Part shown: positions 1,061 to 36,700 of the stretch, in pieces
Numbering within the stretch: position 1 is the stretch's first letter
How the letters are laid out: each line of letters begins with the position of its first letter
NCBI GenBank assembly: GCA_948567375.1
Contig: OX419756.1
Span: 67,966,333-68,030,332, forward strand
Origin: Lunularia cruciata
Lineage: Eukaryota; Streptophyta; Marchantiopsida; Lunulariales; Lunulariaceae
Length of the DNA stretch: 64,000 nt
Reading direction: 5' to 3'
The notes under the pieces: generated by a model
Seen by the model: the letters and a program-made list of their open reading frames with translations, nothing else
What the model was told of the DNA's origin: nothing
Databases searched by the model: none
Position numbers and translations under genes: made by a program

Positions 1061-1349
1061 GGTAACATTTTTGTTCAAGACCAAGAGCATAACTACTCCA
1101 AGGAGAACAGGGACGGGCTGAAGAAAGGAGAGATGGAGTCCCATGAGTAGAAGAGGTCTGAGCATAACAATGATGTTAAAATTCTAGCCAAGTTGGTCAC
1201 ATAGCCATCAATTTTCATGCCTATCTTCCTAGATGGCATTGGCTTCCCTATATGCAACTTTTGAACATCTTGGAGAAACAAATCAAAGAGGAGGAAACTA
1301 AAATCACATCGGAAAACAAAGATTACCGATAAATGTACTTACAACCTTA

Positions 1350-1874: not shown

Positions 1875-1917
1875 TAGAGTGCACAACTTGATAGAAAAAT
1901 TATTGAGAATTTGAAAG

Positions 1918-6706: not shown

Positions 6707-6709
<3 letters not shown>

Positions 6710-6742
<33 letters not shown>
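6710..6742. repeat. (TA)n microsatellite
   Basis: An uninterrupted run of about sixteen TA units. Such runs are length-variable. Nothing around it suggests a function. Confidence 0.95.
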
Positions 6743-6743
<1 letters not shown>

Positions 6744-8318
6744 CTATTTTTCATGAGATTTTATCTACGACTGATTCTTATCTACAACAAGTGATATTTC
6801 CTTGATTATGTTATAACAAGGATTGAGATTACATAACATATGGATATATACTTTCTATACCTTTCTCGTAGACTTGAAGCTGCAAATAGTGGACATTTAG
6901 CTTCCCGCAATGAGATACTCTAGTTTATTATTTTGAACCTTGCTTATCAAGCAAACGATTCACAAAAATGAGTACAAGTCTTCTTTACGACTACACAGAG
7001 ATTTTAGATACTTCTTTGTCACTTTGTACTAAATTTCATGTCAATAAATATTTTTAATAAAATATTTCTTTGTATCGAGTATCGTCTTGGTTGTACTTAC
7101 TTGTATGAACGTTGGACTTAGTCTTTAATATGGTAAGGTAAATCAATTGATGAAACGACCACAGTAAATTTTGACGGTGAAAACTGTACTAAATAATCTC
7201 AAAAGGCTGGGTTCGTTTATGAGATTGATGTGATATCCCAAGTTCATAGATTATTATAGTTTATTTTGCATCAAAAGTAGATCAAGCTCCAAATCAGTTT
7301 TTATAACATATGGGATTTGAATAATATGAATAAATCTCTGAATATCTATAAAGAATATCCAAAAAGTTAGATTTTTCAAATGATAAAATTGTTTAAACTA
7401 TTATTTTATATCCAAAGTCCACTATATGTTGCATGGACAATAAAAAATATATTGCTTGTATCCCACATATTATTGCTTCCAAAATGTTGTAACATATGGT
7501 AGTCATAACATAAATATGCTTTTATAGCTCTCCACATAGACTCTAGAATATTGGTGCATACACCTATTTGGGGGTCTGTGAAATTTGAATGATTCAAGGT
7601 TGAATGTTGGAATCCAAATCGTACTACAATGTAAAATTTCCAACAATGGCTCTATATCAACGTACTGATACAGATTATCAATGAAGTTTCTTTAGTTCAA
7701 TTAGGAATATCTCATCACTCTATCGTTCAACTCCTCCAGAAATTGATTGTCCGTCTACCTTCTTCTCCTTGTGAAAATTTGGTTTCCCGAATTTTGATTT
7801 GTCAATCGCAACTATTCTACCGGTCCACTAATCTTCTCGTTTGTAGCAGCTAGTGAACCTGCACATGCATTTCTACAAAATCCCAGCCATTTTGTAATTG
7901 TTTTCCAAGATGGACCTCCTGCCCAATAAGGTATAAATTCTGCTGGTAATTTCCACCGTCAGTTATGAATAATTCAAAATATTTGCCTGACTAGAAATCT
8001 TGATTGGGTGAACCAGGTATCCGTCCTTGAGCTTAAGAACACTTTAACACTAACAACATCACACATATCCATCGATTGCAGATGCTTTTCCTTCTTCTCT
8101 TCATGTGTCCGTTAAATCGCATTAAACTGAGTGATAATTGTAATTCTTCACATAATTTAAGCGCTTTTTCTAGAGAACTCGTAAGTTCTATCAGGAACGT
8201 AAGAGTGATCATTTGCTGCTCTGCGATCAGCTCTTCCTTCTCCTTCTCGATCTGTAATTTTTATATATATTTTTTTCATTCGGAATCTGTGCTTTTTCCT
8301 TTCTCTTCTTTGATCTGC

Positions 8319-8440
8319 ATCCTCTTCCTCTTTTTCTCTATTCTCTCTTCCCTCGTCTTGAGCTTCATTACATTCTTTGATGTGAATCCTCTTCCTCTTT
8401 TTCTCTATTCTCTGGTCTTGAACTTCATTTTGTTATCGTG
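8319..8440. repeat. Tandem duplication of a CT-rich segment, period about 67 bp
   Basis: The phrase 'atcctcttcctctttttctc' starts at 8319 and again at 8386, each time followed by 'tattctct...tcttga-cttcatt'. The second copy lacks about nine bases of the first. The overlapping open frame at 8076-8525 is low-complexity Ser/Phe/Leu and is probably not a gene. Confidence 0.7.
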
Positions 8441-8824
8441 TAAAAATCTGGTAGGAATTTGCAAAGAATTAGAACATAATGATCAAAAGTGCGTCGAGAG
8501 TACTATAGATGATAGAGAGCGATAGAGATCAGTCTACAATGTATAATATATCGGGCTCTCCTTTTATCTGATTCTTTCCTTATTCTCTCTTCCCCGCTCA
8601 CATATTCGACCTCAGACACTCCGTTAACTCAAACGCTCAAAAAACTCCATAAACTCAAGATCCTCGTACTATAGTTGAATAGATCCTTAATATGGAAATT
8701 CTTTGATCGCTTGCTGTTCATTCTGACACCATCTCTAGATATCCTCCCTCTTCTAACAAAAGCTGTCCCCCAGGAGTGAACCATCTTCTTCGAGTGTAAC
8801 AATAAAATTTTACATCAATCGGAT

Positions 8825-8935
8825 TCTCGTATTGGGGCTTAGCCCCATGTTACCTTTTTTGTCTCTCCCTTGTACGGCTTGATGGGGTCTTCCCATCCTT
8901 CAGTTTTCCTACGCGGTCGCCTTTTTACTGATTCT
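8825..8935 (+). repeat. LINE 3' tail copy 1 (GGGGCTTAGCCCC hairpin)
   Basis: This dispersed unit reads TTGGGGCTTAGCCCCA, then 'tgttacctttt-tgtct-cccttgtacggcttgatggggtcttcccatcc' and ends near 'ctacgcggtcgcctttt'. GGGGC-TTA-GCCCC folds into a tight hairpin. The same unit follows LINE coding remnants at 10440-10580 and at 33640-33792, so I infer that it is the 3' UTR of the LINE family, present here as a 5'-truncated copy. Confidence 0.7.
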
Positions 8936-9357
8936 CATATTCAGTCTCCACTTTACAGTGAGCTTCACTGGCAGTTTGTTTTCCATGTCAAATTGAAGAG
9001 CGACACTCGAAAAGGTAATGGTTTAACGGCGAGCTAGACAGGGGAAATCGATCATGAGTTTCTCTGTCTGGTTTGAAAAAGGTTCAATCAGAAGAGATAA
9101 TAGTTGAAGGAGTCAACGAGCTAAGTTCATGCAATAACTCAAAGCCAGAGTTGAAATGCAAAAAGGATCTCAATCTTCACTGCAAACATCAGTTGACGAC
9201 CGTGTAGACCAGAATGATAGTACGTGGGATGCACTGTAGGTAGACTCTCGAACCGTGGACTTCGACAGTCTAAGCTTCCACGAGAATATGATAACGATTA
9301 CGTGCGGTGTTGTACTCTGATCACGGTCGTGGTAGATAAGCATTGTACTGTTGCACG

Positions 9358-14037: not shown

Positions 14038-14141
14038 TGTAAAAGACCAAGACTAAGAACAGAAATAGGAGAATGGAAACTCACATTGGGACACTTGAAT
14101 GTGGGAAAAATCTGAATGCCTAGCATGAGCTTTGGCTTTGG

Positions 14142-14149
14142 TATTTATA
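14142..14149 (-). promoter_or_regulatory. TATA box of element A LTR
   Basis: TATAAATA on the minus strand. The same box occurs in the 5' LTR at about 18958-18965 and in the LTR arm near 3580. It lies just downstream, in transcription direction, of the heat-shock-type repeats, as expected for a Pol II LTR promoter. Confidence 0.65.
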
Positions 14150-14279
14150 GGTAGCATACAAGGCCCTTAAGATGCTTCTCAAGAAGTTTCCTTGAGCCGC
14201 TTTCTTAGAGTGCAAGCCAAGTTAACCAAGAAGCTTCCTACTAGAAGCTACCTACTTGGCATGCAAGCTAAGCTAGTTG

Positions 14280-14297
14280 GAAGCTTCTAGAAGCTTC
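14280..14297. promoter_or_regulatory. Perfect heat-shock-element array in 3' LTR of A
   Basis: GAAGCTTCTAGAAGCTTC is four alternating GAA/TTC triplets each spaced by two bases, the exact pattern bound by heat-shock factor trimers. Further GAAnnTTC pairs lie at about 14182-14193, 14229-14240, 14340-14365, and a TTCnnGAA near 14370. The array is about 130 bp upstream of the TATA box in the direction of transcription. Binding is inferred from the known consensus only. Confidence 0.6.
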
Positions 14298-14452
14298 CTT
14301 CTAGAAGCTACATGCTTGGGGTGCAAGTTAAGCTAGTCGAGAAGCTTCTCAAGAAGTTTCCTAGATGCTTCTAGAATATTTTGTGTTATTTTGGCTTATT
14401 CTCTACTTCATTAGCCTTACTAACTATGTCACTAAACTCCATATTGTTATAT

Positions 14453-14470
14453 ATTCCCCCACCGCTAGTT
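14453..14470 (-). other. Polypurine tract of element A
   Basis: On the minus strand the sequence beside the 3' LTR reads 'gcggtgggggaata', purine-rich and directly next to the LTR start, as expected for the plus-strand primer site in reverse transcription. Confidence 0.6.
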
Positions 14471-15080: not shown

Positions 15081-15980
15081 AAGAAGAGCAAGAAGAGAAT
15101 TTGGAATTAGTGGATCTTGGCCAAAATTGAGAAAGAAAGGAGAAAATCTGGTGCTTGCCTATTTAGAATTATTGTAGGCAAATTCTGCAACTACAAGACA
15201 TTTATCCCAATTGGTATGGTGGACATTGACAAAGGCACACAACATATCTTCCAAGGTACAATTTTCACATTTGGTTTGGCCATCAATTTGAGGATTATAG
15301 ACCGTGGACAAAGCAAGTTTGGTGTCAAGTATTTGGAAGAGTGCTTGCCAAAACTTCCCAGTGAATCAAGGATCACGATTGAAGATGAGTACACATGGCA
15401 TCTTATGATGCTTGAAGACATTGTTTAAGTAGATTTGTGCTAAGGTTGGAGCATCCATGGTATCAAAGGTTGGTGCCAAGTGGATTTGCTTACTAAGCTT
15501 ATCCACAAACACCACGATTGTTGTATGTCCTTGCTTTGTCTTGGACAAGGATGTGATGAGATCCAAGCTCACATGTTCCTATCAAGCGGATGGAATGGAG
15601 AGTGGTTGAAGGAATCTACTTGGCTTTTGGTTGTTGGCCTTGTTATGTTGGTAGTTCTCACACAATTGGACAAAGTCCTAAACATCTTGTGTCATGTTGG
15701 GCCACCACCATTGGTGTTGGAGGGTACCCAAGGTCTTGTTCACAACCATGTGACCAATTATTGGTAAATCATGGGCTTCTTGAAGGCGCACAAGTTGGAG
15801 ATCACCTTTGGTTGGAACATAGATCCGGTCCTCATGGAATAGAAGGCCTTCCTTGGAGGAGTCAGCTAGACACAAAGGCAATGGGATGTAGTCAATTTGG
15901 GAATTCTTGTTGCAACATGGCTCCAATTGCAAAGTTAGAAGCATCAAAATCAACCACACAAGGTAGCTGAGGATCATATG
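15081..15980 (-). pseudogene. Integrase core of element A
   Basis: Minus-strand fragments give the integrase in order. First is the zinc-binding arm (E-D-R-I-Y-V-P ... L-Q-E-A-H-D-L-P-I-I-G-H, then W-W-W-P-N-M), then the core beginning S-L-D-L-I-T-S-L-S with the first catalytic Asp, and I-F-N-R-D-P with the second. The third catalytic site reads D-G-Q-T-K-C-E-N, where families normally have D-G-Q-T-E-R-x-N, so the catalytic Glu appears to be Lys here. Stops break the frame at several places. It follows an RNase H that is cut short. Confidence 0.8.
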
Positions 15981-17000
15981 GTTGAAGAATGGGCCTTGAA
16001 GACACCATATTTTTCAATGTTTGGTATGTTTCTTTGTGCTTGGTGATCCACTGGAAGTTCAAGTTCTTCCCAAGAGGTCAGTCAATGGTGCAATCACATG
16101 AGCATGATAATGGATGAACCATTGGTAAAAACTGACCAATCTATTAAATGCCCATACTTTTGTAGCATCCTTCGGAGTAGGCCAATTAGTAGTGGTCTTG
16201 ATTTTCTCCTCTTCCATCTTGATTCCCTCCGATGAGATCTTGTGACCCAAAAAAGTAACTTCCTTCTGCCAAAAAGCACACTTTGACTTCTTACAATAAA
16301 ATTTCCATTGTCACAATTGTCTTCGGACTTTGTGCACATGATTCACATGGTCTGCCTCTATCTTGCTATAGATTAAGATATCATCCAAGAACACCACCAC
16401 ATACCAATCCAATAGTCTATCCAACACCCGATGCATCTGATCCATGAAGATTGCTAGAGCATTTGTGAGCCCAAAAGGTAAAACTCTCTACTCAAAATGC
16501 CCATACCTTGTGTGAAAGGTAATCTTTTTCACATCCTTCCTATCAATGGGGATTTGCCAATAGCCGCTGCAAAGATCTAGCTTGGAAAAGTATCATGCTA
16601 CACTCAATTGATCAAGCAAGTCATTGATCCAAGGCAAAGGATATGCATTCTTCACTATTTGCTTATTGAGTCCACGGTAATCAATACAAAAGTGAAGTCC
16701 TCCATCCTTCTTTGGAATGAATATTACCGGTGCTCCCCAAGGAGAGGTGCTATGTCATATGGAGTCTTTTTCCAACAACTCTGTAAGTGTTTTCCGCAAC
16801 TCCTCCAACTTCTTTGGTGAGAGCCAATAGATTGGTCTGCTCACTAGAGTACTCTCTAGAAATAACTCAATCTTGAAGGGCATACCATGATAAGAGAGTA
16901 ATCCCTTCGGTAGATCATTCAGAAACCCATTCAAAAACTCTTGAACTATCTGATCAACCATTGCTTGATGAGGCTCTTGGCCCTCCTCAAATTGTCCTTG
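15981..17000 (-). pseudogene. Reverse transcriptase and truncated RNase H of element A
   Basis: RT motifs are visible in series on the minus strand: [15 protein letters not shown] near 16740-16700, [16 protein letters not shown] near 16570, F-G-L-T-N-A, and W-Y-V-V-V-F-L-D-D-I-L-I-Y-S near 16410-16370, the catalytic box. F-L-G-H-K-I-S-S-E-G-I follows. RNase H begins V-V-D-F-D-A-S-N-F-A-I-G-A near 15950 but then runs into integrase N-terminal sequence, so its second half has been deleted. Several stops interrupt the frame. Order and motifs are those of a plant chromovirus. Confidence 0.85.
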
Positions 17001-17219: not shown

Positions 17220-17651
17220 ATTTTTAGGTGTCTTACTTAGAGGTGCCAGACAAGCTAATCAGAAATTCCTACCTTGGTGTTGTACTTGAATTTGTCATCG
17301 GGTCCAATCAAATTGAACCTTATGACGTTCAAGCCAAGGTAGTCCTAGGATGACATCATAGTGTAGAGGTGCCAATATAAACCTCATACACTCCAAATAC
17401 TCCTTCACAATCTTGAAAGTAATAGGATGCGAGGTACAAAATGTAGAACCTTTTCTACCATCCATCATCATCAATCTATTTCCAATTACCGGCTTGATAG
17501 GAATACACAATTCCTTTGCTACTTGCATAAACATGCAATTCTCTAAACTTCCAAAATCAACCAAAATCCTATAACCCCAATTAGATATCCTACCTTGCAA
17601 GTGAAGCAAATTTGCATAGGTCAAGCCTTCAATCTCATTGGAACTAATCAA
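17220..17651 (-). pseudogene. Aspartic protease region of element A
   Basis: A surviving 118-codon open stretch (17651-17295). R-I-L-V-D-F-G-S-L-E-N-C-M-F lies where the catalytic 'xxLxDSGASxNF' motif belongs. Asp is retained and Ser has become Phe, so the site is altered. It ends with Y-D-V-I-L-G-L-P-W-L-E-R-H-K-V-Q-F-D-W, the standard closing motif of gypsy proteases. It lies between gag and RT on the same strand. Confidence 0.8.
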
Positions 17652-18800
17652 GCTCCCAATAGGCGGCTCAAAATCTCCTACTGGGATTCCTCATTTCCTT
17701 GATCATTTTGCTCCACAAACTCCATCTGAGCAACTTGTCAAGGTCGTCCATTCTTGAGTGGACATTCAGCAATGCAATGTCCCAATTGGCGACATTAAAA
17801 ATAAACCACCATTTTTTTTTGCAATTTCTCATTATCTATAGTGCCATGTGGTCTCCATTGAATGGCATCAATCTCCATTGGTGTCGGATACTCCACCCAT
17901 GTGTAGTGTATCGGCAAGTTAAGTGGAGGTCAAGGTCGAGACCAAGTTGTTGCAACCAAGAAATCAAAACATTCAGCCAACCACATGGTTTCTTCCAAGT
18001 GTTGTGGCTCTCGCATAGTTATCTCTAATTTGGTTCTTGACTTCAAGCCCCTCACAAATGGATCTAGAGCTTCACCTTCCAGTATATCTGGAATTTTCAT
18101 GATGGTGTTTTGGAATTGTGTAATGTAACTTCTTACAAAGCTAATCTATTTCAACTCTAACAACCTATCCTTGCAACTAGTGTGGCATTTATAGCTTGGA
18201 ATTGATTAATAATTGCACTCTTGAATTCTACCCACGTGAAGATTGGTGCAACAATTTGTCATTCATCTTGCTTCACTCAGAATCTCCACCATAGCTTTGC
18301 TACTCCATCCAATTGGCTAGAAGCCAAAAGAATTTATTTTTCTCGTCTTGCAGATTAGTAGCTTCAAAATAATGTTCACAGTCAAACACAAAATTCTCCA
18401 CTGCACTTGAGAGATTCTTGCCTTCAAATACCTTGGGTTTAGGGAATTGGATTTGATCTTCTCCTTCTTGAATTGGTTTGCACTCTACATGCTCTTGTTG
18501 TCAAAGATCTTGTTTATCTAACAATTGAGGTAAGGTACTTAATTTGTTGCTGCATAGCAAAGATAACATTAAGCATTGCCACCATGGTTGCTACTTTATC
18601 ATGCCACCCCTAATCTATCTAATTTATTAACACATAAAAGCAACATGTCCACCATTCTCCATAAGTTACAACCGGAAGTACCAAGGGTTCCTCAAATATG
18701 GTGATCATATGCAAAAAAATTTGTCTAAAGTGTGAGGTGATGAATTGTGTGAAATGATGCTTAAGTAATGCTTGGAAAAAAATCCAAATGGTTTGGTGGA
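17652..18800 (-). pseudogene. gag of element A
   Basis: No long frame remains. Near 17770-17740 on the minus strand the sequence reads C-R-Q-L-G-H-C-I-A-E-C-P-L-K, the second half of a CCHC zinc knuckle (Cys-x4-His-x4-Cys). The first Cys position reads Tyr, followed by a stop. Upstream, many short frames fit a decayed gag by position between the PBS and the protease. The call rests on the knuckle and on gene order. Confidence 0.6.
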
Positions 18801-18854: not shown

Positions 18855-19093
18855 TGTAAAAGACCAAGATTGAGGAGAGAAATAGAAGAATGGAAACTCA
18901 CATTGGGACACTTGAATGTGGGAAAAATCCAAATGCCTAACATGAGCTTTGGCTTTGTTATTTATAGGTAGCATACAAGGCCCTTGAGAAACTTCTCAAG
19001 AAGCTTCCTTGAGCCGCTTTCTTAGAATGTAAGCCAAGTTAACCAGGAAGCTTCTCAAGAAACTTTCTTCTAGAAGTTGCCTACTTGCCGTGC
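18855..19093 (-). repeat. 5' LTR of element A, inner part
   Basis: Begins TGTAAAAGACC as at 14038 and follows the 3' LTR through the TATTTATA box to 'ctacttgccgtgc', where element B interrupts it. The missing rest resumes at 28963 with 'gtgcaagctaagctagttgg'. Confidence 0.85.
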
Positions 19094-19533
19094 TATCACG
19101 CCATTTGTAGTTCCGCATCTAGTTGCTTGGACACTCGAGTTCTAGTGATAATAGTTAGAGTTATTCTAGTAGTTTCTCAAGGACTACTTTCCGACAGTCT
19201 GATTTGGTGTTTGGGGTACTGACTTCACGGTGGGGCCCACCGTCACTTTGCACCGTTCGCACCGTCAGTGGGACCGTTAGGGTTTCAGTGCTAGCTCGAG
19301 TCCAGGGGGGTATAGTTTTGAAGTGAGCTCCAGAGAGCTCACTTATCTGATGTTGAGCCTTCGAGTTCCTAGCTATGGTGGACAGAGGCCGGCGAGCGTC
19401 ACCTGGATTCTCTATGCTTGAGTGGGTGTGGCTTGACTATAATCAATGCCCAGTTGTTGGCAGTTTATAGAGAGATAGATCAAGTACTGATCTGAGTTGA
19501 GTTGAGTTGAAAGTGTTTAGCAATCTGCTTACA
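19094..19533 (+). repeat. 5' LTR of element B, lacking its first ~107 bp
   Basis: Matches 28409-28855 at roughly nine bases in ten, with one 12-bp indel near 19260-19280. The copy begins at TATCACGCCATTTG, whereas the 3' LTR has about 107 more bases upstream of this point, starting at TGTGGCAC. Similarity to the 3' copy stops at about 19530 ('caatctgctt'). Either the LTR ends there, or it continues to about 20439 and the 3' copy is truncated. A candidate primer site at 20442 favours the second reading. Confidence 0.7.
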
Positions 19534-20766
19534 TCAGAGAAGTGAAGTGAGGGGGAAATCCGGTGCACGAACGTTGAGTGTTTGTGGTATCTCCAAGCTC
19601 GGTGGATCGTGGTAGCTCAATTCAAGTTTTGTGTTTCCCTAGTGTGCAGAAGCTCGTTCAAGTGATTCAGATTTGGTAGTTAGGCGGACGGTGTGCGGAA
19701 GCGCTGGCCAAATTTTGAGCAAAGAAGGAGCAATTTTTGAGCAGTGTTGTGATTTTGAGCTCATGAGGTGAAGGCATGACCAATTTGCTGCGAGTTGGGC
19801 TCAGAAAGTGAAATTGAAGGTGGAGTTGGGAAGCTCTTCTCATGAAATTGTGATTTGGAAAAACCCGTTTTGTCAATTTGGCTTGAGTGGAAAGTTAGCG
19901 GGGGATTTGGCGGACAGCCATCTCTAGGGTTTACGTCAGATTTACATCAGATTTTAGGCCAGATTTGGAGGAGTTCTTGCTGTTTTGCTAATTTAGAGGA
20001 GTTTTGCTAATTTGGAGGACTTTCGCAGATTTGGAGAAGTTTCGCTAATTTTGGAGGAGGTTTCAAAGTGGCAACAAGAAAGGCCTCATTTGGCTGAATT
20101 TTGGCGTTTCAAGGCTTTGAGGCATAGGGCTGTGGGCTATGAAGGCCTAGAAGGGCCAGCAAGCCAGCTTGAGGCTAGCTAGTTTAGAGTAGATCTTGGT
20201 CATTGGTTGGCAAAATCTGCCTTTCTTGCTAGATTGTGCATAACAGGGTTTGACCCCTAGATCTCTTGTTCCTAGACTGGTGCCCTAGCGAACTGGTCCA
20301 CCCTCACTTGTTGTCCTAGTGATTGCGCCACTGTTATCTATACACATGTAGCTTTGGCTAGGAGAGGCAGCTTGATCCCATTCTTGGTGATCTTGGTAGC
20401 TTAGGACTTAGATACAAATTGCTCTTATGTCAAATGCCAAATGGTGGCAGAGTCAATCCCGTGTTGTGTTATGAGATGGAGGGTTTTTGTTTAGATTTCT
20501 TGTGATTGGATCCCCTCCATTCTCTACTTCCTGTTTGTGCACCATGTTTGTGTGAGGTGCCCTGACTTTTGAGCGTTGGTGCTCTGGTGTGCTCTCGGTA
20601 GTGAGGCTGGAGTGATGACCAGTCAGATTATCTTTGTTTCTCTCCGGTGAGGCAGGAAGTGATGACCTGCAGACCGTGAGAGTGCGTGTTATGATGGCAG
20701 GTTACAGGTTGCCTTTCCCCTAGTGTAGTTATCTTGGTTAGAGTTACATTAGTGGGTGGTGTTTAG
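19534..20766 (+). other. Leader or U5 region of element B with candidate primer site
   Basis: Noncoding sequence before gag. At 20442-20454 TGGTGGCAGAGTC matches the initiator-Met primer site TGGTATCAGAGCC at ten of thirteen positions. It is preceded by 'gcca' plus two bases, as if an LTR ended in CA at 20439. A weaker 'acatcagag' at 19531 is the alternative site. No coding frame is evident. Confidence 0.45.
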
Positions 20767-22961
20767 TTGGTGTTGGCATGTGGTGGTGTTGGCACTTGGT
20801 GGGGTACTTGCGGTTGTGACTTGCGGTTGCAGTTGGTGGTTTGGGTTTGCTGTTGCGGTTACTTTGTCACGACGGAGTTCTTTGGAGATTCTAGAGGAGT
20901 TAGCCCTGCAGCACGCAGTGGGTTTACTTGGAGTAGTGCTCGGTATCAGCTTGTATCTCACGTCCCAGTGAGGGAGGAGATTGACTCTGAGTTGGAGTTC
21001 GACACAGGAGCTGATTCAGTTGAGAGTGCACTTGGTGTGTCCGCACCGTTGTTGTGGGACATGGACGAGATTTATGGGGCCTCCAAAGGCCCTAGGCGTT
21101 ACTTTGGTACAGTGGGTACCATTGAGTTGGATGATTTCATCTAGGAGTTTGATAGTTGGTGTGATCTGCAGCAGATGTGGAACCCGACTTTGTTCACACC
21201 CTTCATGGCATGGTAGGGGTTGTTTCAGCATCTGGAGGGTCCGCCAATGGATGATTACCATGAGTTATGGAGACAGTATTGGTCTTCACACTATGTTTCC
21301 ATCACTTCAGGCTCTGTGGCCAGAGTAGATCAGCTGTACCCACGAGTTTTAGCTCGAGTAGTGTTGGTGGAGCTAGTGGAGGTGCACTAATTGGAGATAG
21401 TGCTACTACAAGTGGAGGTACCGCTGCAGGAGGTGGTGTGGTACCGGGGTTTAACCCCATGGTTGAGTTCTTCCTATGTTTGAGGCAGAACTACCAGGGA
21501 GTATGGACTGACAAGCTGAGGAGCTTGCAAGAGAACCAGCGGAAGGCTGGAGAGAGCCTACGCGAGGCATACACTCGCATGAGGCGGCTGATCAGTTTCA
21601 CTCAGGGAGTTACTAAGGACCAAGCAGTCCAGTTTTGGTATAGGATACTGGATAGGGAGTTGCGACATAGAGTTCGTGATGCTACATTGTTGCAGGCTAC
21701 TTCGCCCACTTTGGCAGTAGTCTTCGGTTTGGCTGAGCGTATTGAGCTCAACATGGTGGAGGAGAGAGTGGTGACATCAGGATTTGGTAGGGAGACCTCA
21801 TCCACGGTTGTGACTTCTTCTAGAGTGCAACAGAGTGCACCACGCCCCGTTGGTTTTTGAGGACAGGGTGGACAGCCTAGATTCTATGGAGCGAGTGGAG
21901 GGCCTAGTGGAGTTAGACCCTTACCCTCATTTTCGGGTCAGTAGTAGCCAGTGAGTGGTGGTGTTGCTTGTTGGACTTGTGGTGGACCTCACCATAGGAG
22001 AGAGTGTACTCAAGGCAGCGGACCTGATACCTCTGGTGCATCACAGCCAGCACAGAGGCAGTGTGAGCACTGCCATAGATTTGGTCACACTAGTGACCGG
22101 TGTTTTGACCTACACCCGGAGTTATGGAGTGGTAGGGCTGCTATGGCAGGTAGTAGAGGAGCTCCAGTTCATGGAGGACGAGGTGGTAGAGGTGGTGGTA
22201 GAGGATCTACACCTAGTAGGGGTGCAATACCTACCCTTACTTCTGACATAGCTATGGCTACTTGGATTGAGCAGTTGGAGCAAAGATTGGCTAGTATGGC
22301 TATTGCTCAGAGAAGATCAGATTCGGGTGCTGAGGCTTCCACCTCATATGCTAGTGATAGAGATGCTTTGGACTTCATGTGCGGAGCAGTACAAGTGGAT
22401 GCATCTGCAACAGTGATTAGGAGTGCAGTACTTGCTCCAGAGCCTAGAGGAGCATCAGTGGAGTTGGACCCACAGAGAGGAGAGGTTGGGAGACAGGTCA
22501 GACTTCCCCAGTCTTTCATGCTATCTGAGGCATTGCAGACGACATCCATGGTTCCTAGACGTCCTAGTGCAGGTGTGGTAGGTGGTGATGGAGTACATGA
22601 TGGACTACCTGCTAGTCAGCCACCTACTACTACACAAACTGAGTCTAGCATGATGTTGGGGGCGGCTCAGCTGATTATGCGGCATCCTTTGTTTTCAGTA
22701 AGTGACATGTTTACATTGGGAGTTGACCCAACCCTAGTGTTCCGGTTGGCTGCCACATTGTGTGGGAGTAGGGATGGTGCAGTTCCTACTACTAGAGTAG
22801 AGGTGGTTGGTTGTGGAGCTGACTTGGTTGAGGAGCATGGGATCCGTTCAGCGACCAGTGGTTTATGGCAGGCAATAACGGCTAGACTAGAGGAGTTGCC
22901 AGCTAGACCGGCCTTTGAGAGAGCGCGGTTTACACCTGGTGTTGTCTTATTGGATAACTAG
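20767..22961 (+). pseudogene. gag of element B
   Basis: This is the capsid and nucleocapsid precursor. The N-terminal part (20767-21144) is acidic and ends G-T-V-G-T-I-E-L-D-D-F-I. The capsid core lies at 21450-21740, with W-T-D-K-L-R-S-L, E-S-L-R-E-A-Y-T-R-M-R-R-L and Q-A-V-Q-F-W-Y, the usual retrotransposon gag helices. After a stop two zinc knuckles follow: C-W-T-C-G-G-P-H-H-R-R-E-C (CX2CX3HX4C) near 21972 and C-E-H-C-H-R-F-G-H-T-S-D-R-C (CX2CX4HX4C) near 22060. A Gly/Arg-rich RGG-like stretch near 22150-22220 probably adds RNA binding. The 22260-22950 tail is not recognised. One frame change near 21145-21266 and one or two stops break it. Confidence 0.85.
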
Positions 22962-22973
22962 AGGGGGAATTTT

Positions 22974-23738
22974 TTGTTTGGTGGGACCTTCAAGGAAGGT
23001 CTATATACCATAGAGAGTCTTGTTAGACTCTGGTGCGCAGCCCCTTATGTTGGGGAAGGTTGCAGTTGTCGGTCTGGAGTTACGGAAGACCGATGTGGAG
23101 AGGTGTCCATTTCAAATCCAAACATCTCTAGGTGGTGGTTTGACACAGTATATCACACGTGGGGAGCTTGTTGTCCAAGTTCAGCCTGGTCATCCGACTG
23201 ATAGCTCGGTGGTGAGAGCTCAGGCTATTGCGACGATAGCTGAGTCATATGATGTGCTAGTTGGGGGAGTAGTGTTATACCCTATGGGTTTCAGCATTGA
23301 CTATTGGGAGGAGACAGCCTCTTATAGACCTGGTTGGCAGTCTGGTGAGGGACGAGTATGTTACCTACCAGTACACTTCAATAGTGGCAATCTTGGCTCA
23401 CTACAGTCCGGGACCATGGCAGCATCAGTTTTAGCTTTCAGCGGTGCAGTTACTTGGCCTGGTGACTTGTTGGAGGGGAACGCCCATGCAGAGGATACTC
23501 CAATACCAGAGGAGATCACTCGGCTTTGGAGTAAGAGTGGGATTGTTCCATCCACCTTGGATGTTCCATTGTGGAGTTCAAAGGAGGCATTGCAGCAACA
23601 TGCAGATCAGTTGGTGCAGCAGGCTTGGAGTGGAGCCTTCGTACCATCAGGGGATGAGTGTGAGGATGAGCCTCCAGAGGCGATTGCTTTGACACCTCTA
23701 GATACCACACTCATTGCTTGGCAGTATCCAGTAGAGGG
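22974..23738 (+). pseudogene. Aspartic protease of element B
   Basis: The polyprotein protease. V-L-L-D-S-G-A-Q-P-L-M-L-G near 23017-23055 contains the catalytic Asp-Ser-Gly motif, intact. The downstream part (A-I-A-T-I-A-E-S-Y-D-V-L-V-G-G-V-V-L-Y-P-M-G) matches the closing 'YDxLxGxxxLxxxG' motif. The remaining 150 codons, to about 23735, form a spacer of unknown role that leads into the methyltransferase after one frame change (frame 1 to frame 3). The reading is open from 23020 to 23781. Confidence 0.8.
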
Positions 23739-24700
23739 GTATGTCTATTGGAGTTGTTTGGTGGGATCAGCACCGGACTAGCTGCGGTGTTACAAGCGGG
23801 TATACGAGTACAGAGGTACTTGTATGTAGAGAGAGATGAGACTGCTAGGCGAGTCTCTCTCCATGTGGCACACTTGGCCTATTGGTATCCAGAGTTATTA
23901 CCAATGTCAGCAGTCAGAGGTTACCAGAAGGCCTTACCATGAGACATTTCTTTACTGGGGGTGCATGACCTAGAGAGACATGGGCCTATTCACTTGGTGA
24001 TTTCTGGATGGCCATGTCAGGGACATACATGTGCGGGCCGCGGATTGGGTCTTCAGGATCCTCATTCTGGTGTGTTTTGGGAGATGTTACGGATACTACA
24101 ACATCTCCAGGTTCATTAGTCTGTTTCTCTAGCTTACCTTTTGGAGAACGTTCCTTTGATGGGTGATTCTCGCACTAGAGTGGTGGCGAGTACACATCAA
24201 GTCCATTCTTGGATGGGACCTGTTGTATTGTTAGATGCAGCCAGAGTGGGATCACGGGCTCATCGTCTTCGTCTTTGGTGGATGAACCTCTTACCCAAAG
24301 AGGTTCTACAACGTAGTTATGATGGGATTCAGCAACTAGACCACATTCTTGTTGATGATATCTTGGATGTTGGACGTCAGTCTCAGACAGTGGTAGTGGC
24401 TGATAGGTCACCTATGGCAGTGGTGAACCTAGTTGGACAGCCTAGAGCTGCATTTCCCACACTCATGAGTTTCCCAGGCTCTCATGCTTTTCGAGAGTGA
24501 GGACCTGGACTTGTTTGGGACTCACAGTTACAGCAATTGGTGGAGCCCAATGCTGATGAGAGAGAGAGGGCGACGGGTTTTTGCACCGGTATTACCGCTG
24601 TTCCAGCAGTGTCAGAGGCATCTAGGCATCAGGTGTTAGGTCAGGCTATGGACTTGAACTGTTTGACCTGGATTGTGAGCCTTGGCTTGGCAGAGTAGCG
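23718..24700 (+). pseudogene. C5 cytosine DNA methyltransferase domain of element B
   Basis: The domain would transfer a methyl group from S-adenosylmethionine to cytosine C5. Motifs run in the standard, unpermuted order. Motif I is L-L-E-L-F-G-G-I-S-T-G at 23745-23775, with V-E-R-D following (motif II). Motif IV is S-G-W-P-C-Q-G-H at 24003-24026 and includes the catalytic Cys. Motif VI is L-L-E-N-V-P at 24138-24155. Motif VIII is S-R-A-H-R-L-R-L-W-W-M-N near 24252-24287. Motif IX/X is E-R-E-R-A-T-G-F with L-G-Q-A-M-D-L-N near 24560-24660. Every core motif is readable, but stops at 23940, 24117, 24498 and 24696 break it. It is in the same frame as the RT, so it belongs to the polyprotein. PCQ rather than PCN argues against a simple DNMT3 or DRM copy. 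Confidence 0.9.
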
Positions 24701-24704
24701 TAGG

Positions 24705-25019
24705 ATGCGCTTGATAGGCATCACCACTCGGACACTTGTGAGCCCTGTGCCTATCGAGATGATTCAGGCACATGCTGGGGGCGATGGACCGAGTGGACAA
24801 GGTATTCTTGGGACACATCCAGTAGCTACTAAGGAGAGTGGTCTACTTGGAGTCCATCCAGGTGAGCGTGGGCTACTTGGATTACACCCTTGGTCCACAT
24901 GGGATGCAGCTAGAGGACGTGTGGAGCTTGCAGCCAGAGTGGAGGGAGTTTTTCACATAGAGGTTGGAACCTCTAGTGGTCGGGAGCATGACACTATTGC
25001 TCCCAAGGGCCTAGTGTAG
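24705..25019 (+). pseudogene. Linker between methyltransferase and RT with LLGxHP repeats
   Basis: An in-frame spacer of about 100 codons. It contains three close repeats of the form G-[IL]-L-G-x-H-P (near 24801, 24841 and 24868), each followed by a polar segment. I do not recognise a domain. The repeat spacing of about nine to thirteen residues suggests a short internal duplication, perhaps around a processing site. A stop at 25017 ends it before RT. Confidence 0.5.
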
Positions 25020-25031
25020 CAGCTAGTCAGT

Positions 25032-26100
25032 ATGTCTTCCACTCCTACTACAGTTACAGAGGATACTTGGGAGCCAGATCTTGGACCCAAGCTTACTGGA
25101 GAGGAAAGACGGAGGGTTTGGAGGTTCTTGAGGAGTCACACGAGTTGTTTTGCCTTCAGTATGAAGGATTTGGGTGCTCTAAAGGGACCTGGTATATGGA
25201 TTGAGCTGACTAGCGACACACCAGTTTTCTGACATCCTTATCGATATAGTGAGATGGAGAGGACATTGATTGAGAGCCGGAGTAGTGACCTTTTTGATGC
25301 TGGTTTGGTGGAGATTTCACATGGAGAGTATGCATCAGCGACAGTGATGCCAGCCAAGAAGGACATGCATGGCAACTATACAGATAGGCGGATATGTGGA
25401 GATTACCGTCCTATCAACCGACAGACTAGGGCTGATCGGTATGCCATGCCTACACCGGAGGAGATTTTTGATGCAATTGGGCATGCAAAGGTCTTCAGTA
25501 CTTTGGATCTTTGAGCGGGATATCATCAGTTGCCGATCAGGGAGGAGGATAAGTCCAAGACAACATTTTGGGCTATTGATCCTCACGGCAAGGATGTGTT
25601 ATATCAGTGGAGGTTCTTACCATTTGGGTTAAAGAATGCTCCTGCTGAGTTCTAGAGGGTCATGGATATGATCCTAGTTGGATTGGATTTTGCTCGGTGC
25701 TATATTGATGACATTTTGGTTTATAGCACTACTGTGGAGGAGCATGACAGACAGTTGTTGGAGGTGTTTGAGAGATTGAGATCTCATGGACTCAAATTAC
25801 ATCCTGGGAAGTGTAGGTTCTTCCACGAGTAGGTTGAGTATTTGGGTCACACTATCTACCCCGGAGGACTAGGTGTTCAGCAGACCAAGGTGGAGGCTAT
25901 TGCACATATTCCTCAGCCTATGGATGTGAGCAGAGTGCGAGCATTCCTTGGGTTGGCAAACTTCTATCGCCGCTATGTTAGAGGATTTAGTGTCATTGCT
26001 AAGGCCTTGATGAAGCTAACCAAGCTTACACAGGAGTGGTGTTGGGGAGATGAGCAGGAGAGAGCTTTTGTAGAGCTCAAGGAGAGGTTGACATCTGCTC
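25032..26100 (+). pseudogene. Reverse transcriptase of element B
   Basis: This region copies element RNA into DNA. Motifs are in order and nearly complete: A-T-V-M-P-A-K-K-D-M-H-G near 25340, R-R-I-C-G-D-Y-R-P-I-N-R, S-T-L-D-L-x-A-G-Y-H-Q-L near 25497-25530, L-P-F-G-L-K-N-A-P near 25618, C-Y-I-D-D-I-L-V-Y-S near 25700-25730 (catalytic YxDD intact), Y-L-G-H, and F-L-G-L-A-N-F-Y-R-R-Y-V-R-G-F. Stops at 25230, 25512, 25653 and 25830 fall at positions where relatives have Arg or Gln codons. This fits C-to-T decay rather than random mutation. Confidence 0.9.
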
Positions 26101-26640
26101 CTATTTTGAGGAGACCGATCAAGGGACGACCATTTCAGGTTCACACTGATTGGAGTATGTTGGGGCTTGGAGCGGTGCTCACCCAGCATGATGATGAGGA
26201 GAAGGAGTTTGTGGTGGCCTATGCTAGTCGCTCCAACAATTCAGCGGAGGCAAAGTATAGTTCATATGAGGGAGAGTGCTTGGCAGCAGTTTGGGCAGTA
26301 GCACATTTCCGATGTTACCTATTTGGTAACCCCTTCACTCTCATACTGATCATAAGCCGCTGAAGTGGTTGATGGAGTCCGACAAGCTTTCAAGGAAGCT
26401 TGCATGATGGGCTCTAATTTTACAGGAGTATGATTTCACGGTTGTTCATAGACCTAGAGTGGTGAACCGTGATGCAGATGGGTCGAGTAGAAACCCATGT
26501 CCCAGCCAGCAGGATCAGACCGGAGCACGTTGGCATGGTGAGACAAATGAGGAGATGGTGCCAGGTTGGCATGCATCGGCCTTTTTGTGTATATTTGCAG
26601 AGGCTTTGGTGGTATCTCTCTCAGCGCATACATGAGGAGT
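26101..26640 (+). pseudogene. RNase H of element B
   Basis: Removes the RNA strand during cDNA synthesis. F-Q-V-H-T-D-W-S-M-L-G-L-G-A-V-L-T-Q carries the first catalytic Asp, with Trp where relatives have Ala. Y-S-S-Y-E-G-E-C-L-A-A-V-W carries the Glu, and T-D-H-K-P-L-K-W (26345-26370) the next Asp region. A frame change from 3 to 2 lies just before T-D-H-K. A stop at 26405 interrupts L-A-x-W-A-L-I-L-Q-E-Y-D-F. The domain is otherwise full length. Confidence 0.85.
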
Positions 26641-27760
26641 TATTGAGGTCACAGATCCAGAGAGTGAAGATATCGGTACAGTTCAGCGAGACATTCATGA
26701 TGATGTCTTAGTGATAGACTATCTTTGCACTGGTGTTGTGGGTGGCACAATTGGGGCCAAGGAGAGAGACCGTGTTCTTCAGCGAGCCAGACAGTTCAAA
26801 TTGGAGGGTAGACACATTTTGCGTGTATGGGAGGATGGTAGAGTGCGAGTAGTGCCACTTCCATCTCTGAGACCACAGTTGGTCCGTCATGCTCATGAGG
26901 AGGTAGGACATTTTGGAGTAAAGCGTACATATAGCTTACTCCAGAGTCATTATTGATGGCACAGTATGCAGACCAAGGTACAATAGTTTGTTGCCAGATG
27001 TGTGGTTTGTGATCGAGTTAGAGCATCATTCAATGCTCCTATGCCACAGTTACACCCATTACCTATCATGGGATTGGGTTACCGTTGGAGTTTGGACTTT
27101 GCCGGACCTTTACCGCTGACTGTGAGACATCATCGGTATGTTTTGGTGATGGTAGAGCACTTCTCCAAGTGGATTGAGTTGGTGGCACTTCCTGACAAGT
27201 CTAGTGAAGGGACAGCTTACTCGTTCCTGGATCAAGTTCTTAGTCATTTTGGTGCACCAGCTGAGGTTTTGACTGATCAGGGTACAGAGTTCTTGAGGGA
27301 GTTTCAGGTCTTGTGTGACAAGGCTTTGATTGATCATCGTACTACATCCAGAGATCACCCTGAGGCAGATGGCTTAGCACAGAGAGTGGTTCAGACGGTG
27401 AAGAGAGGATTGCAAAAGTATGGTTTGCAGAGAGGCCACTTGGGAGATTGGGATCTCCAGTTACCTTGGTTGGCCATGGGCTATTGGTTCAGCCGGCAAG
27501 CCTCCTTAGCATCCTTCTCTCCATACTTTCTACTCTATGGACGAGATCCAGATTTACCTACAGCCATTCGTCGAGATGCTACTATAGTTTTGGACTTGGA
27601 TGACCCCAATGTATGGATGAGCGCATGTTCTCAACGGGCAGAGATCTTTCGGAGAGTGATGCCGATGGCCTTTGAGAACTTGGCGATTGCTCATCATAAA
27701 GATACTTTATGCTATGCGACCATTTGAGGAGGAGGTTATAGACCCTTGATCCGTCGATTT
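26641..27760 (+). pseudogene. Integrase of element B
   Basis: Inserts the cDNA into the genome. The zinc arm is H-A-H-E-E-V-G-H-F-G-V-K-R-T and, past two stops, C-V-V-C-D. The core has W-S-L-D-F-A-G-P-L-P (first Asp, near 27090) and L-T-D-Q-G-T-E-F (second Asp, near 27270). The third site reads H-P-E-A-D-G-L-A-Q-R-V-V-Q, where relatives have A-E-R: the catalytic Glu is Gln at 27380-27382, so this copy could not integrate. The C-terminal tail R-R-F-H-P-G-D-Y-V-Y-L follows a stop at 27725 and leads into the PHD finger in the same frame. Confidence 0.88.
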
Positions 27761-27988
27761 CATCCAGGCGACTATGTATATCTACAATACACAACACCGA
27801 CCACACTTGATGTTTCTACAGGCCGCACGATCTTGATAGTGCGCGAGGTTTTGCCATCTGGAGTCCTTGTGTTAGAAGGACGTGATGGTGTTGTTTGGAA
27901 GGATCATGTGCGCAATTGTGCGCCATACCACCTTCCAAACATTGATGGTACTATAGACCCAAGCTTGGCACTTGTACGTGTAGGCTTG

Positions 27989-28132
27989 AGGTGTATGTTA
28001 TGTGGCTCTTCTGGTGGAGCTGCTACTATGTTAGTGTGTGATAGCTGTTCGAGAGGATGGCATATGGCATGTATGACTCCTTCCCTCATGGTGGTTCCTC
28101 AGGGACAGTGGTTATGTCCTAGATGTACTTGA
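27989..28132 (+). pseudogene. PHD zinc finger at the integrase C-terminus of element B
   Basis: A plant homeodomain finger, a zinc module that usually reads methylated or unmodified histone H3 tails. The Cys4-His-Cys3 ligands are all present: C-M-L-C, eleven residues, C-D-S-C, four residues, H-M-A-C, then W-L-C-P-R-C before the natural stop at 28130. It occupies the place taken by the chromodomain in chromoviruses and is in frame with the integrase tail. Its likely role is targeting of integration. The module itself has no stop, unlike the rest of pol. Confidence 0.85.
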
Positions 28133-28290
28133 CCTATAGCTAGTTCATTCTTTATATGGTATAGATTGCAGACAGGCGACTAACGATGGGGCTCTATAGC
28201 ACCCGGCCTCCTGATCTTTGCCCATTAGAGGGTATATCATATACTTAGAGTAGATGGCTATCTGGAGTTAGAGGGACCTAACCGCCAGCT

Positions 28291-28301
28291 AGGGGGGCAA
28301 T
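28291..28301 (+). other. Polypurine tract of element B
   Basis: AGGGGGGCAAT lies immediately before TGTGGCAC, the inferred LTR start. It is the expected plus-strand primer site and is the main support for placing the true LTR start at 28302. Confidence 0.65.
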
Positions 28302-28857
28302 TGTGGCACTTTAGAGTCTATGTATGACTTATGTGTGAGTTGTGCTTCTATAGTGTATGATGTTGACAGTGATGTATGTTGTGTAGTGATGTATATACGC
28401 ACGACAGCTTTCATGCCATTTGTAGTTCCACATCTAGCTGCTCGGACACTAGAGTTCCAGTGATAGTAGTTAGAGTTATTCTAGTAGTTTCTCAGGGACT
28501 ACTTTCCGACAGTCTGATTTGGTGTTCGGGGTACTGACTTCACGGTGGGGCCACCGTCACTTTGCACCGTTTGCACCATCGAGTGTGCCGTCAACGGGAC
28601 CGTTAGGGTTTCAGTGCTAGCTCGAGTCCAGGGGGTATAGTTTTGAAGTGAGCTCCAGAGAGCTCACTTCTCTGATGTTGAGCCTTTGAGTTCCTGGCTA
28701 TGGTGGACAGAGACCGGCGAGCGTCACCTGGATTCTCTATGCTTGAGTGGGTGTGGCTTGACTGTAATCAGTGCACAGTTGTTGGCAGTTTATAGAGTGA
28801 CAGATCAAGTATTGATTTGAGTTGAGTTGAGTTGAAAGTGTTAAGCAATCTGATTAT
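28302..28857 (+). repeat. 3' LTR of element B
   Basis: Starts TGTGGCACTTTAGAG and matches the 5' LTR from 28409 onward. At about 28856 it ends in 'caatctgatta' and the LTR start sequence begins again. Its first 107 bases have no counterpart at the left end of the element. Confidence 0.75.
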
Positions 28858-28962
28858 TGTGGCACTTTAGAGTCTATGTATGACTTATATGTGAGTTGTG
28901 CTTCTATAGTATATGATGTTGACAGCGATGTATGTTGTGTAGCGATGTATATACGCACCATA
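28858..28962 (+). repeat. Second copy of the first ~101 bp of the B LTR at the right border
   Basis: 28858-28958 repeats 28302-28402 without indels and with a few substitutions, from TGTGGCAC to 'atatacgcac'. Host LTR sequence of element A resumes at GTGC (28963). This is the very segment missing from the left end of the element. Confidence 0.85.
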
Positions 28963-29152
28963 GTGCAAGCTAAGCTAGTTGGAAGCTTCTAGAAGCTTCC
29001 TTCTAGAAGCTACCTGCTTGGGGTGCAAGTTAAGCTAGTCAAGAAGCTTCCCAAGAAGTTTCTAGATGCCTCTAGAATATTTTGGGCTAATTTGGCTTAT
29101 TCTCTACTTTGTTAGCCTTACTAACTAAGTCATTAAACTCCATATTGTTACA
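28963..29152 (-). repeat. 5' LTR of element A, outer part
   Basis: Resumes with 'gtgcaagctaagctagttgg' and matches 14269-14451, including GAAGCTTCTAGAAGCTTC at 28982-28999, which is preserved exactly between the two LTR copies. It ends 'atattgttaca', so the outer end is TG on the minus strand. Confidence 0.85.
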
Positions 29153-33792: not shown

Positions 33793-36700
33793 TGTGGTGC
33801 CCACATTTTTTGTTTTTCTCAAAATAGAGAAGAAGATGTGTATAGAGAAGTCGGATTGCGCCTGTATGGCTGAAGAAGGCAAAGAAAAGAGTCTTCGGGA
33901 TGAAACCCGAAGTAAAGTGACTTCAGGTCATAAGGTGAAGTACTTGGAAATGCCCTGTCAGCATACAACCCGAAGTAAGGAATCTTCGTATCGGAGGAGC
34001 TCAACTCGAGGCGAAGACAATCTAACAACCTTTCATCGGGGTGAGAAATTCAAGAAGGGACTGTTCAAAACCGGCGGCCCATACGCGTGAAGTACAATTG
34101 ACAGTGACAGGCGCATGCAAGAGGTGTGATTTCTTGGTAGAAACTCAAATTGAAGAGAGATGAAGAAAGCGTGACTCTATAAAAATTGGGCTAACGACAA
34201 AGCAATGTCGAGCAATTTTCCTTTGCCATTGAGAAGTCGTCTTGCAGGTGATCATGGGAAGGGAAATAGAGTTGAAGACGCGCTAGTGTGTAGAGGAGAA
34301 GTCAAGAGAGTGAAACCGAGAGACATTGAGAAAGCAAGAGAGATAGGAGGAGGAGAGAAGAACTCCAAATTCATAGTGAGGAATCATGCAATTCAGAGGC
34401 TAGACATGTCATGAGAATCAAAGTCTTGAGCTGACTTCGGATTACGTTCTTGGCATGGAACTAGAATGTCAGTTTTCCAGGTTTCATGACCAAGATAATC
34501 AAGAGTAAGTGTCTCGATGGCCCCGAGGAAGAGGGGAAGAGAGGAAATCTGGCTCGCTGGACAGAGTTGGATTGGAGATTAGTGCTTGGGAGAGAAGCAG
34601 GCGTGGAGCAGGGAACCACATTCTTGGGTAAGGGAGAAGTAGCAGAAGAGACTCAAGAAGTGAGAGATGCTTTCTCTTCAAAGAGAACAAAGAATGGGTA
34701 TAAGGTTGAGAGTTACAAGGATCCAGTGAAGAGAGGGAACGTGAGTGCTCTCATGGCGATCCTGAAGCCGGAGAGAACGACTTATGTGATGAAACACCAA
34801 GTGGTGTTCTTCCATAAACTATTTGCAAGAGAACCGATTAATTGGGCGAGGTGCTTCCATGGGAGGACGAGACAGATGGTGTGGAATTTGCGGGATAAGT
34901 CGCTTCCACACTACATCATGTTGTTTGCAGCACATTTCTACCTTGGGTTGAATTTGCTGAATTCGGCGGAGCAAAATCAAATAGTATCTCACTTCCATCC
35001 CGACTTGAGAAGAGAAGTCAACATGGAGGAGCAGCAGTACATTCTTCAAATCTAGAGCATGAATGAGTACTACGCGAAGACGGGTAAGAGCGTGGAGATA
35101 GAAGCGAGTACTCTGAAGTCAAAGAAGCAGAGTCGGCAAGGAGAAGCTGAAGACAAGACAAGACCTCAGAAGACCAGGAGAGAAAACCCAAGGAGAGGCA
35201 TGGTGGTGATCACGTCAGAAGACGAAGACTCAAAAGACAAAGCCGAGTGCAAGTCCGAATACTCAGAACGTGAGGAAGAACCAGAGCTCACGCTACAAAG
35301 TGGAGATACGAGTAGCAATAGTGATGAAGGTGGAGAGATGACGTCGGTACCAGCTGCTATTGTGGAAGAAGAAGAAGTTCAGGTGGAGCTCAAGCTAGAA
35401 GATAATACGAAGTTGGATGACAAGATACCTAAGCCCGAGGAGAAGAAGTTTTGTGATCCAGAGGGGAGTTCGTTCAAGATGCAAGGTGAAGTGTGAAGCG
35501 GGTCCGAGTAAGGTGAAGGAAGAAGCAAATGCTAGCTCGGGAAGTGAGGCATCGATTCCAATATGAAGACTGTAGAGAAGAAGGCAAGTAACAGGTGAAG
35601 AAGAAGTAAGGAAGGAGATTGCTACGCAGGCGGAAGTAGTTGCAAGCAATGGAGTGGAGTACCTGTAGGAGATCATGTGTCCATTGTTGGTGAATTGGAG
35701 CACAAGAAGAAGGAGATGCAGTCAACATGTCCGGAGGTGAAGACTATCTTGCATGTATTGGCAAAATTAGAAGAAGAGAACTCAAAGTTGAAGAAGAGTA
35801 TAACCCGAGGCAAGGAAGAAAGGGAAGTACTGCGAGGAGAGGCAGTAGTGAAGAATCAAGTGATTGAAGATTTGAAGAGAGAAGTGATGTATCGAGAGGA
35901 ACTTGTTAAGAAGAGTGACATAGCAAGGGAAAGACAAGTAGCAGAGTATGAAATCTTGAAGCAACAGTTTGCTGATTCAAGATTAGAAATTATCCATGCT
36001 ATGGCGAGGGTAGCAGCGAAGGAACAAGAACTTGATAGAGTAATGGAGAGTGTAGAAGAGAAGAAGCAACTGTGGCAAAGGGAGTTGGTAGTAAGATATA
36101 GGGAAGAAGAGAGATTACAAGAGTTACTTCGTAATCAGGAGGCAAAGATTGAGCAGAAGGAGAAGGAGAAAGAAACGATGAAAGCCGAGTTCAAGGCGGA
36201 ATTGGCGATGTATAGAGAAGATTGGCTTGCAGATTGGGAACAAGAAAGGAAGATGAGATTGGAGCTATTGAAGGAGATTGTCCTCAAAATGAACGCAATG
36301 CTAAGTACAGAGGCCAACATTCAGATTGAAGAGACGAGGCTGCACAAGTTGAAGTTGTTGGTGTAGAAGACGAGGAGGAGACAGGTGAAGGACACAGATT
36401 TGAATGCGCTATTAATTAGTCTAAGGACTCATGTAGATAGGAAAATATTAGAAGTAGAAGATAACATTGCAATTAGATTAGACTTAGTGAAATTAGAGAT
36501 AGATAAACTTTAGAAAGACGTTAGAGCCAAACCCAAAGTCTATGAAGTAGGAGTGCAGATGTCTTTAGAGTTACCAGTGGAGAAAATAGAGAAGAGTGGG
36601 TCGGGAGATAAAGAGTTATATAGATTGCACACTAGTGAAATTTCAGATTAGGAAAGAGAATTGCTAGATCTGGTAGAAGATGCAAGAGTTGTGAAACCCG

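Follow-up and report, generated by a model that had tools for sequence, protein, structure and literature searches.

A DNMT3-type cytosine methyltransferase domain conserved in a gypsy-type retrotransposon family of the liverwort Lunularia cruciata

A stretch of 64,000 nucleotides from Lunularia cruciata (contig OX419756.1, positions 67,966,333 to 68,030,332; hereafter the window) contains a retrotransposon in which a C5 cytosine DNA methyltransferase (DNMT) domain lies upstream of the reverse transcriptase (RT). This locus raises the question of whether the enzyme belongs to the element and, if so, what it might do there. A preliminary description, made from the sequence alone, proposed that a Ty3/gypsy element encodes its own C5 methyltransferase. 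A Pfam match and a survey of genomic copies bore this out, for an element with gypsy-type domain order, as a trait of the whole family. The window element is an old, decayed copy of a highly amplified gypsy-type liverwort retrotransposon, and a DNMT3-type domain under selection is very probably a feature of this family.

The DNMT3-type C5 methyltransferase domain occupies positions 23718..24700 of the plus strand. In frame 0 (23718-24701), the sequences LELFGGI, GWPCQG, LLENV, AHRLRLWW and GQAMDLN, which we take to be motifs I, IV, VI, VIII and X, follow one another in that order, and three stops interrupt the domain in this copy. With X placed at the stops, the translation matched PF00145 at 1.1e-6 (28.7 bits, cut-off 22); the absence of such a match had been named in the preliminary description as a reason to abandon the proposal.

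To assess the distribution of the domain, the window DNMT was used as a query against the genome (565.8 Mb assembly, 74 contigs), and of the 13,349 candidates from the first look, 124 were scored. All 124 matches, the window's own row included, covered the domain with at least 93% identity, and for this reason we do not regard the DNMT as a chance occurrence. Exact 26-mers numbered 1,127 for DNMT and 2,944 for RT, and reversed controls gave 0. The higher RT count raised the possibility of an RT-only sister family, which was rejected after inspection of the first 12 RT places on contig C1 without an adjacent DNMT 26-mer: all 12 carry DNMT sequence, comprising most of the domain at 11 of them and only about the last 49 residues at L152. 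Thus, family copies without the domain, the other finding that would have spoken for a host gene fragment, were not encountered among the scored matches or the RT places. The same genome contains another DNMT family, which is divergent and decayed (L039, L040); in L040, RT similarity begins directly after the DNMT.

Selection, for which the preliminary description had suggested a dN/dS test, was analysed on 30 loci (L009-L038), which were picked by DNMT score and include the window copy. Among variants present in at least three of the 30 copies, we counted 23 synonymous and 13 nonsynonymous changes in DNMT, giving a ratio of nonsynonymous to synonymous polymorphism (pN/pS) of 0.19, 21 and 13 in RT (0.18), and 21 and 25 in the Gag-end/protease region (0.39), these counts being small and transition-dominated. 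Variants found in exactly two copies were dropped. Singletons gave pN/pS values of 0.43 for DNMT, 0.76 for RT and 0.71 for Gag-end/protease, the DNMT value being lowered by the choice of copies on DNMT score. Without transitions, the shared variants fall to 3 and 1 in DNMT and 3 and 2 in RT, too small to lean on. The shared variants thus indicate purifying selection on DNMT that is similar to that on RT. Among 60 stop alleles, 34 were CAG to TAG, 13 CGA to TGA and 5 TGG to TAG, the spectrum to be expected if CHG and CG sites decay from C to T.

The preliminary description had also taken the PCQ motif as an argument against DNMT3. When PDB sequences were searched with profile A1 (26 sequences), DNMT3A, 3B or 3C filled the first 29 of 58 rows (best 5.4e-24); among other types, DRM reached 3.5e-11, HhaI 7.9e-8 and DNMT2 1.2e-4. 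An AlphaFold model of the relative P0001 (pLDDT 87.8, pTM 0.87) was used for a fold search, in which the best 50 of 161 matches with E-values of at most 0.001 were all DNMT3 chains or complexes (top 3.0e-18). In a viral library the best row was a phage C5 methyltransferase at 5.9e-16, and because of this match the fold alone is not exclusive to DNMT3. By profile and predicted fold together, DNMT3 is the nearest of the C5 methyltransferases, and we assign the enzyme to this type. The argument from PCQ therefore fails, although the aligned DNMT3A chains have PCN in the catalytic loop where the element has PCQ, and a non-DNMT3 type was rejected. The motif order is unpermuted (I before IV, VI, VIII and X), unlike that of DRM. 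Across aligned relatives, the catalytic Cys is conserved in 118/124, the Gln of PCQ in 112/124, Glu in 137/144, Asn in 142/145, and the two Arg of motif VIII in 142/156 and 145/155; three of the six sequences without the Cys have gaps at this position.

With regard to the place of the DNMT in the coding region, it does lie between protease and RT and in the frame of RT, as had been described, but a conserved stop divides it from RT. In 26 of the 30 loci there is no frame change from the end of Gag through protease and DNMT (segments of at least 200 amino acids); frame changes between the Gag end and DNMT occur in L022, L029, L034 and the window copy, the last having one between protease and DNMT. 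A single unbroken frame from upstream of the protease motif to the stop, which is fixed in place, was found in 10/30, and in a further locus, L049, the first open stretch extends over 1,428 codons (stop to stop). The stop, at 25017-25019 of the window, is present in all 42 sampled copies (41 TAG, 1 TAA). It is TAG in each of the 30 loci, followed by CAGCCA in 27 and CAGCTA in 3, whereas 12 further copies have 11 TAG and 1 TAA and keep the CARYYA context in 7, so that this context is intact in 37/42 copies; on the window's plus strand, it follows only 3 of 1,193 TAG triplets. In the window, TAG CAGCTA (25017..25025, plus strand) comes after a linker at 24701..25016 which leads from the DNMT to the end of the first open reading frame (ORF1). 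Fifteen of 20 ORF1-like relatives terminate 74-129 residues past the DNMT, several of them being partial models. RT, RNase H, integrase and a PHD finger follow the stop in the Gag-protease-DNMT frame. Since the conserved stop divides DNMT from RT, the DNMT belongs, as judged from the reading frames, with Gag and protease in ORF1 and not with Pol. UAG CARYYA is the leaky context of the tobacco mosaic virus type, and the virus's own sequence is described as giving 32% readthrough in plant leaves (PMC2754532, PMC4132726). We therefore predict that the stop of the element is leaky and allows readthrough into ORF2.

The same arrangement is found in a relative, L059, which has identities of 52% in DNMT, 64% in RT, 72% in integrase and 64% in the PHD region; TAG CAATCA stands at the matching place and is followed by 1,047 open codons in the same frame. 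This sequence (CADCWO010000201.1, positions 1-9206) is filed as uncultured Synechococcales, yet contains a complete-looking plant-type DNMT retrotransposon, and by our own reading it is misfiled under a cyanobacterial genome. Between its two ends there is an overlap of 48 bases, which is what a circular molecule would show. A similar misfiling may explain P0019, a protein recorded under Candidatus Obscuribacterales.

Organism names among the relatives include Marchantia, Riccia, Calypogeia, Sphagnum and Closterium, and two arrangements can be distinguished. In T1 the DNMT is upstream of RT (Marchantia polymorpha P0121 with 1,278 amino acids, Sphagnum fallax P0145, Closterium P0173 and metagenomic P0132-P0142), and in T2, comprising most of the metagenomic P0146-P0172, the order is RT-RNase H-DNMT-integrase-PHD. 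T2 elements thus share DNMT and PHD finger in a gypsy-type polyprotein with the liverwort element, unlike which they have the DNMT between RNase H and integrase. A script rule split 57 proteins into T1 (21 + 7) and T2 (26 + 3). T1 (5 rows) and T2 (22 rows) were separate in an RT tree of 27 rows (support 100/98), and in a DNMT tree of 67 rows, whose outgroup consisted of human DNMT3A pieces only, the T2 rows grouped with a support of 96/99, the main T1 group having 93/81. On the other hand, Calypogeia P0105, with protease and DNMT in one protein, fell on the T2 side (87/78), which is against a clean split, and the placement of the long branches P0173 and P0177 is unsure. T1 and T2 may stem from one capture with a later move or from two captures. 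No seed-plant name appeared among the best 120 of 157 DNMT matches, or among all 57 in another search, most matches being without an organism name. Viral contigs scanned with P0002, P0132 and P0169 yielded no relative; with profile A1 they gave 77 loci with best-segment identities of 25-48%, which we read as phage-type enzymes. In a search of genome contigs, six of seven loci were actinobacterial (27-36%).

The whole decayed copy spans 19094..28962 on the plus strand, as did all its features, with ends learned from five other copies that were fetched, and is flanked by GTGC (19090-19093 and 28963-28966) as target duplication. The left terminal repeat A (19094..19530) starts with TATCAC here and with TGTCAC in 5/5 fetched copies. 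The Gag region (20767..22961) has broken frames and contains, within 21951-22961, two Cys-rich sequences, CWTCGG... and CEHCHRFGHTSDRC, which are presumably knuckles. The protease region (23014..23710, with LLDSGAQ) lies in a frame which runs upstream of the DNMT from 23014 to 23778; in a Pfam scan this window frame itself matched no protease family, and retroviral-type protease families were matched in relatives P0105 and P0140. Past the stop, a decayed RT and RNase H region in the DNMT's frame (25020..26480) was assigned by nucleotide match to copies and is supported by Pfam matches in relatives. Further downstream are the integrase core region (26987..27724; rve PF00665, 1.5e-14) and the PHD finger (27992..28126; PF00628, 6.2e-11). 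A PHD region is found in all 22 relatives having an integrase stretch of at least 230 residues. The solved fingers nearest to the window PHD by sequence are those of CHD4, MLL3, KMT2D and DPF2; the finger is of a histone-reading type and may read H3. An Rfam search gave no match.

The ends of the element are unusual. GGGGGG at 28292..28297, which we take to be the likely polypurine tract, precedes an inner repeat B (28300..28406), followed by the right repeat A (28409..28855) and an outer repeat B (28856..28962), which terminates in CATA here and in CA in 5/5 fetched copies. The order A-coding-B-A-B was found in the window and in all five fetched copies, whose outer ends are TG and CA (altered in the window); none of these has simple long terminal repeats as its two ends. 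The B/GC/A joint (28403..28412) reads GACAGCTTTC in the window and is the palindrome GACAGCTGTC in 5/5 fetched copies, occurring once in each, at the inner B/A joint. Target duplications of 4 bp (CATG, AGGA, CCTA and ATCA) flank four of the five. Split ends together with 4-bp duplications suggest integration from a circle. At the right end of L050, about 91 extra leader bases lie between A and B, suggesting that this joint forms anew at each insertion. L053 is inserted in inverse orientation in another copy of its own family, and about 75 bases of its flank are repeated. The Kimura two-parameter distance between the two A repeats is 0.060 in the window element versus 0.0056-0.0255 in the five other copies, which marks the window copy as old.

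The Gag-protease-RT-RNase H-integrase order with an rve integrase was observed in the window, relatives and L059, so the element is gypsy-type by domain order. DIRS elements are not known to make a target duplication. The liverwort element shares with DIRS the split direct repeats; it differs in having an rve integrase and 4-bp duplications rather than a tyrosine recombinase, none being detected in Pfam scans of the window and relatives, beyond which no search aimed at one was made. REM1 of Chlamydomonas is related to gypsy elements and carries additional domains of an unusual kind, but to our knowledge no DNMT. The nearest published element, compared by description only, is KnitGypsy-Dnmt3 of Klebsormidium nitens (de Mendoza et al. 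2018, PMC5890265). As described there, it has gypsy-type domains, an unpermuted Dnmt3-type enzyme in the polyprotein under purifying selection, and the A-coding-B-A-B order, split direct repeats being given as a DIRS feature. In that alga, Dnmt3 is inside the Pol ORF, whereas in the liverwort the DNMT closes the Gag-protease ORF before the UAG-CARYYA stop; the land-plant host is a further difference, and so perhaps are the stop context and the PHD finger. The same account includes two other retrotransposons with C5 methyltransferases from Symbiodinium, SymbioDIRS-Dnmt3 (a DIRS element with tyrosine recombinase, whose Dnmt3-type enzyme is CG-active in yeast) and SymbioLINE-Dnmt (a LINE), unlike the liverwort element with its rve integrase (PMC5890265). 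DNMT3 in streptophyte and dinoflagellate retrotransposons is mentioned, with reference to the 2018 paper, in PMC12344493. Open-licence PMC literature, covered mostly at title level, named no DNMT-carrying retrotransposon of a land plant. The kind is thus known from the 2018 elements, and what is added here is a gypsy-type element of a land plant whose DNMT3-type domain is conserved and under selection.

The original framing around seed plants did not hold. A DOMON/cytochrome b561 gene flanking the element (exons within 48924-50759, joined by hand) has identities of 63% to Marchantia paleacea, 61% to M. polymorpha and 55% to Riccia fluitans and R. sorocarpa, the remaining 23 of 27 rows among the matches listed having 38-45%; this one gene places the host as a liverwort probably near Marchantia and Riccia. 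For Lunularia cruciata, a genome of 580 Mb with Ty3/Gypsy bursts is reported in PMC9985172. Motifs resembling AGAAGCTTC abound in a dispersed repeat at 3470-5178, 14038-14458, 18855-19054 and 28964-29150, one copy of which houses the DNMT element. Fragments of another retroelement lie on the minus strand at 15681-16013 and 17298-17690 (integrase zinc domain, 2.6e-9; a weak aspartyl protease match is under the cut-off). At 34465-36363, extended open stretches with many charged residues had no Pfam match above the cut-off.

How might such an element work? ORF1 would encode Gag, protease and DNMT, and a minority of ribosomes would pass the leaky stop into RT, RNase H, integrase and PHD finger. 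As the DNMT lies in ORF1 before the stop, it would be made in Gag-like amounts and could enter the virus-like particle. There or in the nucleus, it could methylate cytosines in double-stranded cDNA freshly made from the element, and a new insertion would come already bearing the host's heterochromatin mark. On the integrase side, the PHD finger may read histone H3 and steer integration. Reverse transcription primed before B would yield B-GC-A ends, and a circle with two such ends, opened at one B/GC/A palindrome, would give A-coding-B-GC-A-B with 4-bp duplications. We regard this whole chain, from Gag-linked DNMT and leaky stop to self-methylation, PHD steering and circle integration, as about evenly balanced between right and wrong. 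Its fullest form is rather unlikely: a reader-writer retrotransposon of land plants, whose Gag-fused DNMT methylates two-end circle cDNA in the particle, whose PHD finger reads H3, whose rve integrase inserts at the internal palindrome, and whose copies land pre-marked and are tolerated, thus reaching thousands.

Several observations weigh against this chain. Besides the small shared-variant counts in copies picked by DNMT score, there is no extra CpG depletion, observed/expected being 0.42 over the 30 copies and 0.43 for the window element as against 0.26 and 0.38 in the window flanks. L053 lacks a 4-bp duplication. RNA folding 3' of the stop does not stand out in L026 (z -0.56, mononucleotide shuffles), L059 giving z -2.86 by the same shuffles. 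Two Marchantia models, P0126 and P0135, have DNMT and RT in one protein. Finally, when tested by itself in yeast, the KnitGypsy-Dnmt3 domain produced no methylation, a result described by its authors as inconclusive (PMC5890265).

Among the alternatives, the one that survives best, though we think it on balance unlikely, is that the DNMT is active on another target, for instance rival elements, DNA of invaders or the chromatin of the host, and that the element profits from this. Retrotransposon methylases have, speculatively, been given a part in defence against viruses (PMC6338049), and conservation and selection of the domain are compatible with any target, but its placement with Gag would favour a substrate inside the particle. 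It is more doubtful that the domain is a catalytically silent DNA- or chromatin-binding module aiding packaging or integration. DNMT3L is such a silent partner of DNMT3A, and both the yeast result and the relatives without the catalytic Cys would agree with this; most aligned relatives, on the contrary, keep the Cys, Glu and motif VIII Arg residues. Equally doubtful is the production of ORF2 by splicing or re-initiation instead of readthrough: joined models such as P0126 and P0135 are what one would obtain from an intron or from a modelling artefact, and L026 has no strong RNA structure after the stop, but ORF2 is in frame immediately after the stop and the CARYYA context is kept in most copies and L059. 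That chance brought a piece of a host DNMT3 into a single copy or a few, as the broken window copy might suggest, has a negligible probability and is refuted by the copy survey (scored matches, 26-mer counts and RT places), with selection and the same order in L059 and Marchantia also against it.

A DNMT element is thus present in many copies in a liverwort, and related ones occur in the laboratory plant Marchantia polymorpha, so that the question of why a retrotransposon carries the enzyme that silences it becomes testable. The Gag placement, the predicted leaky stop and the split ends offer concrete predictions on amounts, packaging and integration. The element may itself write the silencing mark that hosts normally turn against such elements.
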